From Streptomyces sp. MZ04 (GTDB lineage Bacteria > Actinomycetota > Actinomycetes > Streptomycetales > Streptomycetaceae): DNA of 64,000 nt. Of the stretch, positions 37,904-41,047 are shown one piece after another (within the stretch, counting starts at the first letter, position 1; each line of letters opens with the position of its first letter). The stretch spans positions 1 to 64,000 of the forward strand of contig NZ_SRIC01000003.1 of the NCBI RefSeq assembly GCF_004684775.1, given 5' to 3'. The notes beneath the pieces are model-generated. The model made no database searches and was not told the origin of the DNA. It saw only the letters and a program-made list of their open reading frames with translations. The position numbers and the translations under genes were made by a program.

Positions 37904-38734
37904 TCAGTGCGCCGCGCCCGACCAGCCGTCGCCGCACGGCCCGCCGCCCACCGCCGCGGCCACGGTGACGTCGGACCCGTCCGGTGCGACCAACGGCAGG
38001 TACCACCGGGCGATCTCCACGGAAGTCTGCGGAACGTAGTGGAAGATCAGCGACATGCGGAAGCGGTCCTCCGTCGTATTCGGCAGCGAGCCGTGCACCA
38101 AGCTCCCGTGGAAGAACAGGACATCGCCCGCGCGCATCACCGTCTGCACAGGTGTCATGCCTGCCGGGGGACGCACCAGACCGGTGGTGAACGACTCCTC
38201 GTCGTCGGCCGTCTCGGGGCACACCACCTCCATGGTGTGCGAGCCGGGAACCACGGACAGCGCGCCGTTGGCCGCGTCGCAGTCGTCGATCGCGATCCAG
38301 GCGGCGACGCACGTCTCCGGGTGGGCCCGGAGGAAGTAGTTGTCCTGGTGCAGCGCCTGGCCGCGTGCGGAGGGCGGCTTGAAGTAGAACATCGACTGCG
38401 CGCCGAACGCCGGGCCGATGAGTCCGGTGACGATGTCCAGGATGCGGCGGTCGGTCATCAGCCGGCGTGCGATCGACCCGACTTCCAGGTCCGGGTGCCG
38501 GTGCGGCTGCATGAAGCGGGGGAAGCGCGCCAGGATGTCGTCATCGGCGAGGCCGTCCCGCGCGCCCAGGCGGTGCCGGTCCCGTACGACCTGATCCATG
38601 AACGCCGAGCGGATCGTCTCGACCTCGCCGGAGGTGAGCAGGCCGTCGACCCGGACCATGCCGTCGGCGGCGTAGCGCTCGACCCGTTGCGACGCCGGTG
38701 CTGTATCGGGTGTCATGCTCTCCATCGTGTTCAC
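37904..38734 (-). CDS. Phytanoyl-CoA dioxygenase family protein
   Basis: 276 aa. Fe(II)/2-oxoglutarate oxygenase with HxD in QALHQDNYFL and the distal His in HGSLVHGSLPN; the Arg for 2-oxoglutarate is in EDRFRMSLIFHY. Size is typical of PhyH enzymes of secondary metabolism or small-molecule hydroxylation. It is divergent from an AraC regulator with only 38 bp between start codons, so that regulator probably controls it. Substrate unknown. Confidence 0.87.
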   Translation of the reverse strand: MNTMESMTPDTAPASQRVERYAADGMVRVDGLLTSGEVETIRSAFMDQVVRDRHRLGARDGLADDDILARFPRFMQPHRHPDLEVGSIARRLMTDRRILDIVTGLIGPAFGAQSMFYFKPPSARGQALHQDNYFLRAHPETCVAAWIAIDDCDAANGALSVVPGSHTMEVVCPETADDEESFTTGLVRPPAGMTPVQTVMRAGDVLFFHGSLVHGSLPNTTEDRFRMSLIFHYVPQTSVEIARWYLPLVAPDGSDVTVAAAVGGGPCGDGWSGAAH

Positions 38735-38772: not shown

Positions 38773-39612
38773 ATGGAAGATGCTGCCGCGGGGCGTGGCG
38801 CGCCGGCCCGTCGGCAGGTCGTCGCCACGGCCGAGAACCGGGTCGTCGCGGGCCGGCTCGCGGCCGGCCTCGACTACCGGACCGTGCGGCACGCCGGCAC
38901 GGACGACTGGCTGCTCCTGTTCACCTGCCGGGGGCGTGGCCGGATCAGGAACGCGGGGGCGGCCGACGTGTACGCCGATGACAGGTCCTTCGTCGCGATC
39001 GCTCCCGGCACTCCCCACGACTACAGCACCGACGCCGCGGCCGGGGACTGGCTCCTGCTCTGGGCCCATGTCCAACCGCAGCCCGAGTGGCTCGCCCTGC
39101 TCGACTGGCCGCAGGCCGCTCCCGGCGTGGGCCGCGTGCTGCTGCCCGATCCGCTCGCCGGCCGCGTCGCGGCCGCGCTGACCAGAGCCGTGTCCCTGAG
39201 CAACAGCGCACTGGCGAACGCCGCGCTCTTCGGGGTCAACGCGGTGGAAGAGGCGTTGCTGTGGTGCGATACGCAGAATCCCCGCGGTGAGCGGATGGAC
39301 CCGCGCCTCCTCGCCGTGCTCGAGCACCTCAGCAATCGCTTGGCCGCCCCGCACACCGTCGGGTCCCTCGCGCGCGTCGCCGGACTGTCGCGGTCCCGGC
39401 TCTCCCGCCTGTTCACCGCGCAGTTCGGGACGAGTGTCATGGCGCATGTCGAAGAGCGCCGCATGGCCGTGGCGTGCCGGCTGCTGCGCCTGTCGTCGCT
39501 TCCGGTGCGCGATGTCGCCCGGCAGGTCGGCTACAACGACCCGCTCTACTTCTCCACGCGTTTCCGGCGCGCCCTGGGATGCTCTCCTTCGGCGTACCGC
39601 GACGGAGCCTGA
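38773..39612 (+). CDS. AraC family transcriptional regulator
   Basis: 279 aa. N-terminal AraC-type cupin sensor domain (about 25-140, with IAPGTPHDYS) and C-terminal double helix-turn-helix (about 180-278, SLARVAGLSRSRLSRLF and DVARQVGYNDPLYFSTRFRR). Divergent from the PhyH gene across 38 bp, a typical local-regulator layout. The effector is probably a small molecule related to the dioxygenase substrate. Confidence 0.9.
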   Translation: MEDAAAGRGAPARRQVVATAENRVVAGRLAAGLDYRTVRHAGTDDWLLLFTCRGRGRIRNAGAADVYADDRSFVAIAPGTPHDYSTDAAAGDWLLLWAHVQPQPEWLALLDWPQAAPGVGRVLLPDPLAGRVAAALTRAVSLSNSALANAALFGVNAVEEALLWCDTQNPRGERMDPRLLAVLEHLSNRLAAPHTVGSLARVAGLSRSRLSRLFTAQFGTSVMAHVEERRMAVACRLLRLSSLPVRDVARQVGYNDPLYFSTRFRRALGCSPSAYRDGA

Positions 39613-39650
39613 GCCGGGTCGGGACCTGAGCCGGGGCGGCTTGAAATTCG

Positions 39651-39680
39651 TGTGACTCCGGGATCCGGGCCCGCTACCGT
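39651..39680 (+). promoter_or_regulatory. Promoter of the Ala leader peptide/AlaRS-core transcript
   Basis: TGTGAC (39651-39656) and TACCGT (39675-39680) are 18 bp apart and match TTGAC / TANNNT. The expected start site, 7-8 bp after the -10 box, falls on the ATG at 39688, so the leader peptide would be made from a leaderless message, as is common for actinobacterial attenuation peptides. Confidence 0.5.
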
Positions 39681-39687
39681 CGCCCGT

Positions 39688-39756
39688 ATGAACGTCACCG
39701 GCCCCAACACCACCGCGACCGCGCGAGCGACCAGCTCGCCGGTTGCCGCCGCCTGA
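39688..39756 (+). CDS. Alanine-rich leader peptide (candidate attenuator peptide)
   Basis: 22-residue frame starting MNVTGPNTTATARATSS and ending PVAAA, then TGA. Six of 22 residues are Ala, with three consecutive GCC codons directly before the stop. It has no Shine-Dalgarno sequence but starts where transcription should begin. It lies 124 bp upstream of an alanyl-tRNA synthetase-like gene and is followed 15 bp later by a strong hairpin. Ribosome stalling at the Ala codons when charged Ala-tRNA is scarce would be expected to change folding of the following RNA. The peptide is too short for ordinary gene calling; the regulatory reading is inference from layout. Confidence 0.6.
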   Translation: MNVTGPNTTATARATSSPVAAA

Positions 39757-39771
39757 CGTACTCCCCCCTCT

Positions 39772-39802
39772 CCACCGGCGACCGGAAACGGTCCGCCGGT
39801 GG
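39772..39802 (+). terminator. Attenuator-like hairpin upstream of the AlaRS-core gene
   Basis: CCACCGGCGACCG, loop GAAA, CGGTCCGCCGGTGG: a 13-bp stem with one bulged base and a GNRA-like closing loop. It begins 15 nt after the leader-peptide stop and ends 78 nt before the synthetase ATG. No U-tract is present, as is usual for Streptomyces terminators. Confidence 0.7.
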
Positions 39803-39880
39803 TTCCGTGGCTCTCCCGCCTGTGCCGCTGTGCGGACCGCGTCCGGTGCCTCCCCGCCGCGCACGCGAAGGAGCCACCCC

Positions 39881-41047
39881 ATGAACACCGACCACGTCAT
39901 CCGTACGTTCGTCGAGTACTTCGAGGACCGCGGTCACCGCCGGATCACCGGCTCGACACTGCTGCCACCGACCGGTGACCCGGTCCTGTTCACCACCTCG
40001 GGCATGCATCCCCTCACCCCGTACCTGGAGGGGCGCCCACATCCGCTGGGCAGGCGGCTGGTCAATGTGCAGCGCTGTCTGCGCACCACGGACCTGGAGG
40101 AAATCGGCGACTCCACCCATCTGACGGTCTTCGAGATGCTCGGCACCTGGTCGCTGGGCGACTACGAGGGCCCGCTGAGCCTCGACTGGGGTTACGGGCT
40201 GCTCACCGACGGATTCGGCATCGATCCCGGTCTGCTGCACGCCACGGTCTTCGGCGGCGACGACCGGATCGGCCCGGACACCGCCTCCTCGGAGCTGTGG
40301 CAGGAACGCGGGGTGCCGGTGGAGCTCACCGTCGAGGACAACTGGTGGGACAACGGACCGACCGGCCCGTGCGGCCCCGACTCGGAGATCTTCATCTGGA
40401 CCGGCGCCACCCCGCCCGAGTCGACGCCGACCGGCGACGACCGCTGGGTGGAGGTGTGGAACCACGTGATGATGCGTCACCGCCGCCTCGACGACGGCTC
40501 GCTCGTGCCGCTCCCGCAGCGCAACGTCGACACCGGGCTCGGCCTGGAACGGCTGGCCGCCGTGCTGCAGGGCCGGACGTCGGTGTTCGACTGCGACCTC
40601 TTCGATCCCTGGCGGCGTCTCGTGCCCGCCCTGTGGGAACTGGACGAACCGTCGCTGCGGCTGGTCTGCGACCACCTGCGCTCGGCCATGGTGGTGATCG
40701 GCGACGGGGTGCGCCCGGCCAACACCGGCCGCGGCTATGTGCTGCGCCGACTGGTACGCCGAGTGCTCACCGTGCTGTGGCGGGACGACCCTTCGCGCGG
40801 CCTCGGTGACCTGCCGGACGAACTCATCCTGCACACCCTGGACCACTTCCGTCAGGAAATGGACACCGACGACGTGCGCCGATCGCTGATCGAGGAGGAG
40901 CGCCGCTTCAGTCGACTCCTCGAGCGCGGCAGGCAGGTACTGGCCCGGCCCCGGTTCCGCGGCCCGCTGGACGACGAGGACTTCCACTACCTCCACGACA
41001 CCCATGGTCTGCCGCGCGACCTGGTCCTGAGCCTGCGTCCGGAGTGA
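39881..41047 (+). CDS. Stand-alone alanyl-tRNA synthetase catalytic core (AlaRS paralogue)
   Basis: 388 aa, ATG with AAGGAG 7 nt upstream. It aligns by eye with the aminoacylation domain of AlaRS only: FTTSGMHPLTPYLEG, VNVQRCLRTTDLEEIGD, HLTVFEMLGTWSLGDY, the WEVWNHVMM-type strand (VEVWNHVMMRH), NVDTGLGLERLAAVL and DHLRSAMVVIGDGVRPANTG. It stops just after the helical domain (YLHDTHGLPRDLVL). The editing domain and C-Ala oligomerisation domain of full AlaRS (about 880 aa) are absent. It could activate alanine for tRNA or for another acceptor, or serve as a resistance or stress paralogue. The upstream Ala leader suggests it senses Ala-tRNA charging. Confidence 0.85.
   Translation: MNTDHVIRTFVEYFEDRGHRRITGSTLLPPTGDPVLFTTSGMHPLTPYLEGRPHPLGRRLVNVQRCLRTTDLEEIGDSTHLTVFEMLGTWSLGDYEGPLSLDWGYGLLTDGFGIDPGLLHATVFGGDDRIGPDTASSELWQERGVPVELTVEDNWWDNGPTGPCGPDSEIFIWTGATPPESTPTGDDRWVEVWNHVMMRHRRLDDGSLVPLPQRNVDTGLGLERLAAVLQGRTSVFDCDLFDPWRRLVPALWELDEPSLRLVCDHLRSAMVVIGDGVRPANTGRGYVLRRLVRRVLTVLWRDDPSRGLGDLPDELILHTLDHFRQEMDTDDVRRSLIEEERRFSRLLERGRQVLARPRFRGPLDDEDFHYLHDTHGLPRDLVLSLRPE

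Follow-up and report, generated by a model that had tools for sequence, protein, structure and literature searches.

Introduction

How might a cell that has run short of charged tRNA-Ala still build the enzyme that supplies it? The question is raised by a locus of Streptomyces sp. MZ04 that lies in the first 64,000 nucleotides (nt) of contig NZ_SRIC01000003.1 (hereafter the window, from contig C332 of the 9.1-Mb draft genome G000). There, a 22-codon leader-peptide open reading frame (ORF), alaL, and an RNA hairpin precede alaS2, a gene coding for a stand-alone catalytic core of alanyl-tRNA synthetase (AlaRS). An initial annotation had read this arrangement as an alanine attenuator, with three consecutive GCC codons at the end of the leader as the stall site. 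Comparison with related loci leads us to consider it likely that alaL-alaS2 is an emergency alanyl-tRNA synthetase cassette under ribosome-mediated attenuation, which can be built when Ala-tRNA is scarce. What is new here is that AlaS2, as predicted from its genes, is nearly or wholly alanine-free.

A conserved leader ORF accompanies alaS2

The alaL ORF (39688..39756, on the forward strand like all parts of the locus) codes for the peptide MNVTGPNTTATARATSSPVAAA, and its start codon, chosen from the position of the promoter, is in frame with an Ala-Arg-Ala core. To the window we added the best 80 of 112 relatives found in a collection scan (Streptomyces and Kitasatospora), 20 more distant loci and 29 loci from a genus search, giving 130 loci in all. 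A leader was found in 128 of them, corresponding to 117 distinct sequences after 11 duplicates were set aside; as the leader finder was keyed on the Ala-Arg-Ala core, the informative figure is that of the loci without a call. There are two: L033 starts inside the leader on a truncated contig, and L105, apparently the same locus as L038, was missed by the script. The leader ORF, a 13-bp hairpin and the AlaRS core gene are all where the initial annotation had placed them, and they recur together.

The distinct leaders are 21 to 23 codons long, one of them (L057) starting with GTG. The motif A-x-A-R-A is present in 112 of the 117 (ATARA in 90 and AAARA in 22, with 5 others), and the last three residues are AAA in 63, AAV in 34, ADA in 16 and different in 4. 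When the start codon was chosen from the promoter alone, it fell in frame with the Ala-Arg-Ala core in 117 of 117 leaders, while the spacer from the leader stop to the hairpin takes all three phases (45, 36 and 36 leaders), which is the mark of a translated ORF. Two codons stand out: CGA is invariant in the leader (117/117) yet accounts for 4% of Arg codons in the AlaS2 gene, and 86 of 117 leaders retain GTT, which is 1.2% of the AlaS2 Val codons. Both lie where the RNA must pair.

Across a genus sample of 295 Streptomyces genomes, AlaS2 (at least 587 bits) was found in 67, all of which carry the leader; this linkage count does not amount to an independent search, the leader model having been built from 61 leaders, many of them from Streptomyces. 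The leader itself occurs in 68 of these genomes, in one copy each. The 68th (L179, in G012) is an intact leader with AlaS2 in pieces behind it, a decaying copy. The genome search also returned two AlaS2 frames interrupted by a stop, L150 (G011) and L100 (G168), one by TGA and the other by TAG.

Linkage extends beyond the genus. In a class sample of 394 genomes, AlaS2 (at least 523 bits) was found in 12, nine in Streptomyces and the remaining three in as many further families, and all 12 have a leader, counting that of G374, whose 34.7 bits lie below a false partial match in G656 (36.8 bits) and which was accepted for its ORF and its position before AlaS2. Leader matches without AlaS2 (G656, G597, G533 and G631) were treated as noise. 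The AlaS2 proteins of the three other families are at 62–66% identity, and their leaders, MQSRRIVTAAAARASRSPVAAA, MYQTSRSAAAARAIRSPAAAA and MRSRRVRTAAGRAASSPAAPA, were absent from the search model. The exact Ala-Arg-Ala sequence is lost in MRSRRVRTAAGRAASSPAAPA; the alanine run reads AAAARA in two of these families and AAGRAA in the third.

Genes around the locus are not conserved: a crude ORF caller, some of whose clusters are probably in the wrong frame, put the commonest neighbouring family in 9 of 80 loci, and a same-strand ORF begins within 120 nt in 19 of 79 loci. Generic operon conservation was ruled out as the cause of leader conservation, since the neighbours differ between loci. AlaS2 was also found on linear plasmids of Streptomycetaceae (8 records, 78–87% identity), with a leader in the 7 of 7 copies examined. 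Given the unconserved neighbours and the leaders on all seven plasmid copies, leader and gene move together. These seven copies (L220–L226) reside on linear plasmids of 0.27–2.35 Mb, 5 of 7 being typed as mobilizable.

Alternative RNA structures point to the Ala-x-Ala-Arg-Ala codons as the probable sensor

Folding of the leader (39688–39882) gave −100 kcal/mol compared to −74.2 ± 4.2 kcal/mol for 200 shuffles (z −6.1). Its pairing regions are arranged as follows. Region 1 (39715..39728) is the 5′ arm of a 1:2 hairpin; region 2 (39734..39748) provides both the 3′ arm of that hairpin (39734–39746) and the 5′ arm of a 2:3 antiterminator (39739–39748), of which region 3 (39776..39785) is the 3′ arm. 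The 3:4 hairpin (39772..39802), the presumed terminator, has 13 bp between arms 39772–39784 and 39789–39802 and a GAAA loop. Over 61 diverse rows, the share of paired cells is 92.6% for the 1:2 hairpin (97.0% for the inner helix of region 1), 98.5% for 2:3 and 86.6% for 3:4, compared to at most 54% for slid controls; the window sequence, itself one of the rows, was the template for these mutually exclusive structures, which favours them over the controls. The alternative antiterminator that folding might have revealed, according to the initial annotation, is predicted as the 2:3 helix. Both the Ala codons and the hairpin are kept in aligned orthologues, contrary to the loss that the same annotation had named as grounds against its own reading. 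The 3:4 hairpin has a median minimum free energy of −21.0 kcal/mol (117 rows), and the median distance from its end to the gene match is 89 nt. A scan of 39500–40000 against Rfam revealed no T-box, the sole match being an unrelated family far below its cut-off.

Using folding scans, we then located the modelled stall positions that leave the antiterminator free. With the ribosomal A site at codons 7–14 of the window leader, the nascent RNA has 8 or 9 of the 9 region-3 bases in upstream pairs; at codons 6, 15 and 16 the number is 7 of 9, and from codon 17 onwards only a local 4-bp hairpin is left. The scan was extended to the 61 rows with leading edges of +11, +13 and +15, the antiterminator being scored as formed when at least 7 of 9 region-3 bases were paired. 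Stalls at codons −3 to +1 relative to CGA freed the 2:3 helix in 61 of 61 rows with leading edges +11 and +13, whereas with +15 codon +1 freed it in 31% of rows. These positions point to codons 10–14 (39715..39729; Ala Thr Ala Arg Ala, encoded by GCG ACC GCG CGA GCG), which overlap region 1, as the sensor.

Stalls at the tail codons gave a formed antiterminator in 0–2% of the 61 rows. The terminal GCC run was therefore rejected as sensor: in the model, a ribosome stalled there hides the antiterminator strand, and the antiterminator stays unformed in 98–100% of rows. The three terminal codons on which the initial annotation had placed the stall are probably not the sensor, given that stalls at the A-x-A-R-A codons free the antiterminator in all rows at leading edges +11 and +13. 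That annotation nevertheless reads the locus as an attenuator, which is probably right as far as comparative analysis goes: an Ala-codon leader with alternative structures stands before the AlaRS core in every readable orthologue, but the sensor was mislocated.

AlaS2 is a catalytic core nearly devoid of alanine

The alaS2 gene (39881..41047), preceded by an AAGGAG Shine-Dalgarno sequence (39868..39873) that is conserved in the alignment, codes for 388 residues. The product matches positions 3–402 of the 552-position AlaRS catalytic profile (Pfam tRNA-synt_2c, E 3.5e-81) and scores 289.2 bits against TIGR00344, under the cut-off of 457.05. It lacks the editing and C-Ala domains and is not a full-length AlaRS; in an alignment with the AlaRS chain 3hxu_A, its residue 383 falls opposite residue 409, and the protein ends five residues later. 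The full-length alaS of the window genome is separate, on contig C298, and has no leader of the alaL type. For residue counts, we used 103 distinct AlaS2 sequences, after removal of the duplicates L188 (of L032) and L189 (of L079); L136, which covered the wrong range, and the stop-shortened L150 were left out of counts of proteins longer than 350 residues, and L219, the corrected version of L136, was not used. Residues R68, W156, V196, D217, G219, E223 and R224, which we take to be the motif 2 and 3 residues and the alanine pocket of a class II catalytic core, are invariant in all 103, and AlaS2 is likely to be an active alanine-activating core that would aminoacylate tRNA.

Alanine accounts for 1.74% of AlaS2 residues, with a median of 7 Ala per protein and a range of 0 to 17; the window copy has 9, all encoded by GCC. 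By comparison, alanine makes up 14.2% of 262 crudely called neighbouring ORFs of at least 300 residues from the same loci, none of which (0/262) is as low, and 6.8–10.0% of the matching region of 14 canonical AlaS proteins. The depletion holds for every group: the main clade (81 rows) has 2.0%, the distant Streptomyces clade (20 rows) 0.7% and the set of three other families 1.9%. Seven of the 103 proteins (L011, L058, L133, L135, L138, L187 and, from another family, L183) contain no alanine at all, and on the protein tree, which does not include L187, they are spread over three or more distinct places. Cognate bias (PMC4209129, as far as its accessible text goes) predicts such a depletion, though in the table of that study the bias for alanine biosynthesis is high (median +13.8). 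No report of alanine depletion in AlaS2 was found in the open-access literature by a search only partly aimed at cognate depletion.

The sensor and the main-clade gene use different alanine codons

In the main clade, 587 of the 627 Ala codons of AlaS2 are GCC and 9 are GCG, compared to 55% GCC and 38% GCG in 471 neighbouring ORFs. The Val, Thr, Pro and Gly codons of AlaS2 show no comparable shift relative to these neighbours. Over the 103 rows, GCG makes up 266 of 332 sensor codons and GCC 268 of 288 codons of the leader tail and 625 of 691 in AlaS2, counts that are not independent owing to shared ancestry and that, in the tail, are constrained by pairing. The selective charging theory, as set out in the accessible part of PMC1183508, could yield the main-clade pattern. 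Taken with the depletion, this pattern makes us lean, on moderate grounds, towards AlaS2 being an alanine-starvation-proof synthetase: selection would have stripped it of alanine (zero in several lineages, about 14% in neighbours), and in the main clade the leader would use the Ala codon that is starved first and the gene one that can still be read.

The promoter resembles those of the WblC regulon

Upstream of the leader, a position profile identified a −35 element, GTGACT (39652..39657), separated by a 17-nt spacer from a −10 element, TACCGT (39675..39680), and the ATG of alaL begins 7 nt further on. All 117 promoters have a TANNNT −10 element that ends 6 nt (22 rows) or 7 nt (95 rows) 5′ of the leader start; from this spacing, we infer that the leader transcript is leaderless. 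A mapped start downstream of 39756, which the initial annotation had named as a second ground against its reading, was not encountered in the accessible text, where no start site is given for alaL. An A/T run of at least 4 lies at −34 to −22 from the −10 element in 97% of the promoters, compared to 0–4% in control windows clear of the AT block and 50% in a window that half overlaps it. The sequence GAAAWY with at most one mismatch occurs at positions −35 to −28 relative to the −10 element in 103 of 117 promoters, whereas 2.8 were expected from mononucleotide shuffles, and the exact box is present in 29 of 80 rows. In the window it reads GAAATT (39643..39648), 3 nt 5′ of the −35 element, a putative WblC/WhiB7-type activator site. 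With this box at this place and a TANNNT −10 element, the predicted promoter is WblC/WhiB7-like, and its motif and spacing match those of the WblC promoter in the accessible text of PMC7157823.

A proposed mechanism

These features suggest the following circuit. WblC/WhiB7, which translation stress induces, would activate the leaderless promoter, and a first ribosome would be on the leader while RNA polymerase is still near. With Ala-tRNA plentiful, the ribosome would pass through region 2, 3:4 would pair and the transcript would end; without initiation on the leader, 1:2 would form and the transcript would likewise end. When Ala-tRNA is short, the ribosome would stall on the A-T/A-A-R-A codons in region 1 and leave region 2 free, so that 2:3 would form before region 4 emerges and transcription would continue into alaS2. 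Being almost without alanine, and in the main clade avoiding the GCG that dominates the sensor, AlaS2 could be made during the shortage and would restore Ala-tRNA.

Weighing the cassette against other explanations

Several observations weigh against this circuit, and we set them out beside the explanations that they touch. The first concern termination. The consensus scan gave no terminator with a T-run, the hairpin having no classical U-tract, and the 8 nt after it contain at most 3 T in 105 of 117 rows. The full-length window RNA always favours 3:4, so that the choice between 2:3 and 3:4 must be kinetic and made during transcription. A 3:4 hairpin that does not terminate, with control exerted through translation initiation, RNA decay or Rho, would fit the missing U-tract as well as the conserved block and the possibly paired Shine-Dalgarno region that lie between hairpin and gene. 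We find this explanation unlikely: the hairpin ends upstream of the gene match (a median of 89 nt) and leaves the Shine-Dalgarno sequence uncovered, and the downstream alignments contain no consensus structure of note.

The block itself (CCGCGTCCGGTGCCTCC, 39837..39853) is kept in the downstream alignments and well conserved, as CCGTTCTCCGGTGCC in the main clade and CGTTTCCGG in the distant clade. It is complementary to the hairpin loop and 5′ arm, and the Shine-Dalgarno sequence is a further possible partner for its 3′ part; a check of the downstream alignments for Shine-Dalgarno sequestration and for pairing of the terminator loop with the block gave nothing firm.

A second point is covariation. 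Column 62, in region 2, has column 37 as its partner in 1:2 and column 110 in 2:3; one clade differs at all three. On a protein tree of 102 rows (L187 left out; L140 and L142 without a call at column 62), column 110 changed once and columns 37 and 62 nine times each, mostly unmatched. We therefore downgraded this triple as proof of the switch, the tree showing one event, not independent ones. Moreover, the 62–110 pair of the 2:3 helix is lost in 6 of 61 rows.

The specificity of the signal is a further point. Stalls at codons −6 to −4 before CGA also free the 2:3 helix (89–100% of 61 rows), and the permissive stretch of about 8 codons includes the Ala run and extends beyond the Ala codons; Thr and the rare CGA are themselves among the sensor codons. 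The leader might thus sense general translation stress as the upstream ORF (uORF) of whiB7/wblC does, drug-slowed ribosomes anywhere in the permissive codons, rare CGA included, giving antitermination without a specific alanine signal. The WblC-type promoter before AlaS2 and the invariance of CGA in all 117 leaders agree with such a role, as does a permissive window that is not all Ala; according to the accessible text of the respective papers, the whiB7 uORF attenuator acts in this way (PMC10727445 and PMC13236596) and the alaS2 of S. coelicolor is tetracycline- and WblC-dependent (PMC7157823). General sensing nonetheless leaves unexplained both the enrichment of Ala in the sensor in four families and the stripping of Ala from the enzyme, and CGA can be pinned by the pairing of columns 45 and 55, so that we hold it to be improbable.

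Doubts of another kind concern the enzyme. In AlaS2, N281 and D373 are the Asn and Asp at the positions that we presume read G3:U70 of tRNA-Ala. D373 is kept in 97 of 103 proteins and N281 in only 75 (lost in 28), both being present in 14 of 14 canonical AlaS; where N281 is replaced, the tRNA choice of AlaS2 may differ from that of canonical AlaS. Its AlphaFold model is poor (mean pLDDT 67). In the cell, AlaS2 could activate alanine for a different product or act as a regulator instead of serving as a tRNA synthetase, in keeping with its end five residues past the position matching 409 of 3hxu_A, the missing editing and C-Ala domains and the relaxed Asn at 281. This appears quite improbable to us in view of motif and pocket residues that are invariant in 103 of 103, of the lack of conserved neighbours and of a nearly Ala-free protein that suits the need at low Ala-tRNA.

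As to codon choice, the split between sensor and gene is limited to the main clade. The distant Streptomyces clade has GCC in the sensor, and GCC also accounts for 45 of the 52 Ala codons that remain in the gene. L180 is nearly reversed, with GCC, GCC, GCC, GCG and GCT in the sensor and GCG for 16 of 17 codons in the gene, on a local background of 51% GCC and 44% GCG; L181 is mixed. The single Ala codon of the L148 gene is GCG, and its sensor has GCA, GCC and GCT. Ser codon use is shifted too, TCG reaching 43% in AlaS2 compared to 29%.

The composition of AlaS2 is unusual in other residues as well: Lys is low (0.3% compared to 1.5%, with 8 of 262 neighbouring ORFs as low) and Ile is halved, and the Ala codons in the GC-rich stem of the leader are partly forced by pairing. 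Loss of Lys and Ile fits a GC-rich drift, to which the loss of Ala runs opposite. That the Ala of the peptide is a by-product of the GC-rich stem and the low Ala of AlaS2 compositional drift, as the pairing of much of the leader core and the low Lys and Ile could suggest, is very improbable and disfavoured, since a drift towards GC would be expected to increase Ala, none of the 262 neighbouring ORFs is as Ala-poor, proteins without Ala arise in three or more distinct places on the tree and two other families have one additional Ala codon 5′ of the paired part. Lys is absent altogether from 44 of the 103 distinct AlaS2, the window copy included.

In the window, the locus directly follows a same-strand gene for an AraC-type regulator (38773–39612), opposite to which lies a dioxygenase-like gene (37904–38734); both were named by eye.

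Relation to known systems

The belief of the initial annotation that no Ala-codon leader peptide had been described has to be given up. The alaL of S. lividans TK24 was found by RNA-seq and is listed in Table 4 of PMC8079986 (2021), which states that its type was previously undescribed; its peptide, MNVIGRNIFATARATSSPVAAA, is identical to the leader L097 of genome G246, which stands before AlaS2. In that report, the target is named alaS, neither "paralog" nor "WblC" is mentioned in the main text, and the accessible text holds no structure model, conservation analysis or Ala-poor truncated target for alaL. The accessible text of PMC7157823 reports that the S. coelicolor AlaRS paralogue alaS2 (SCO7600) depends on WblC and tetracycline and that alaS (SCO1501) does not, in line with the WblC-like box of 103 of the 117 promoters here, and the word leader is absent from its main text. 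SCO7600 is presumably an orthologue of AlaS2.

In the whiB7/wblC attenuator, as proposed for alaL, a uORF overlaps an antiterminator and the latter is in competition with a terminator, as described in the accessible text of PMC10727445. Unlike alaL, it controls a regulator, not a synthetase, and its sensing of drugs is broad. Trp-type attenuators, treated in a systematic analysis of upstream regions in actinobacteria that includes the trpS and leuS leaders of Streptomyces (PMC1262725, accessible text), share the 1:2/2:3/3:4 logic, the cognate codons in region 1 and the synthetase targets; the word alanine is absent from the main text of that work. They differ from alaL, whose hairpin has no U-tract. 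In 2010, Vecchione and Sello reportedly described an auxiliary indolmycin-resistant TrpRS under attenuation in Streptomyces, which would likewise be a spare synthetase behind a cognate-codon leader, for Trp instead of Ala.

Three things that stand apart in the literature as far as its accessible text goes, namely alaL, a WblC-dependent alaS2 and the attenuation logic, are joined at this locus. If our interpretation is right, alaL-alaS2, a cassette found on chromosomes and linear plasmids, would unite cognate bias and selective tRNA charging in a form extreme among natural examples, and would be a way out of the trap in which an amino acid is needed to build the enzyme supplying its charged form. 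Because sensor and target differ in their Ala codons in the main clade, the cassette could serve as a natural test case for the selective charging theory. It also suggests that the charging of Ala-tRNA may be a weak point of actinobacteria under antibiotic stress, in agreement with the role of WhiB7 in mycobacterial alanine starvation that is cited in the accessible text of PMC10727445.

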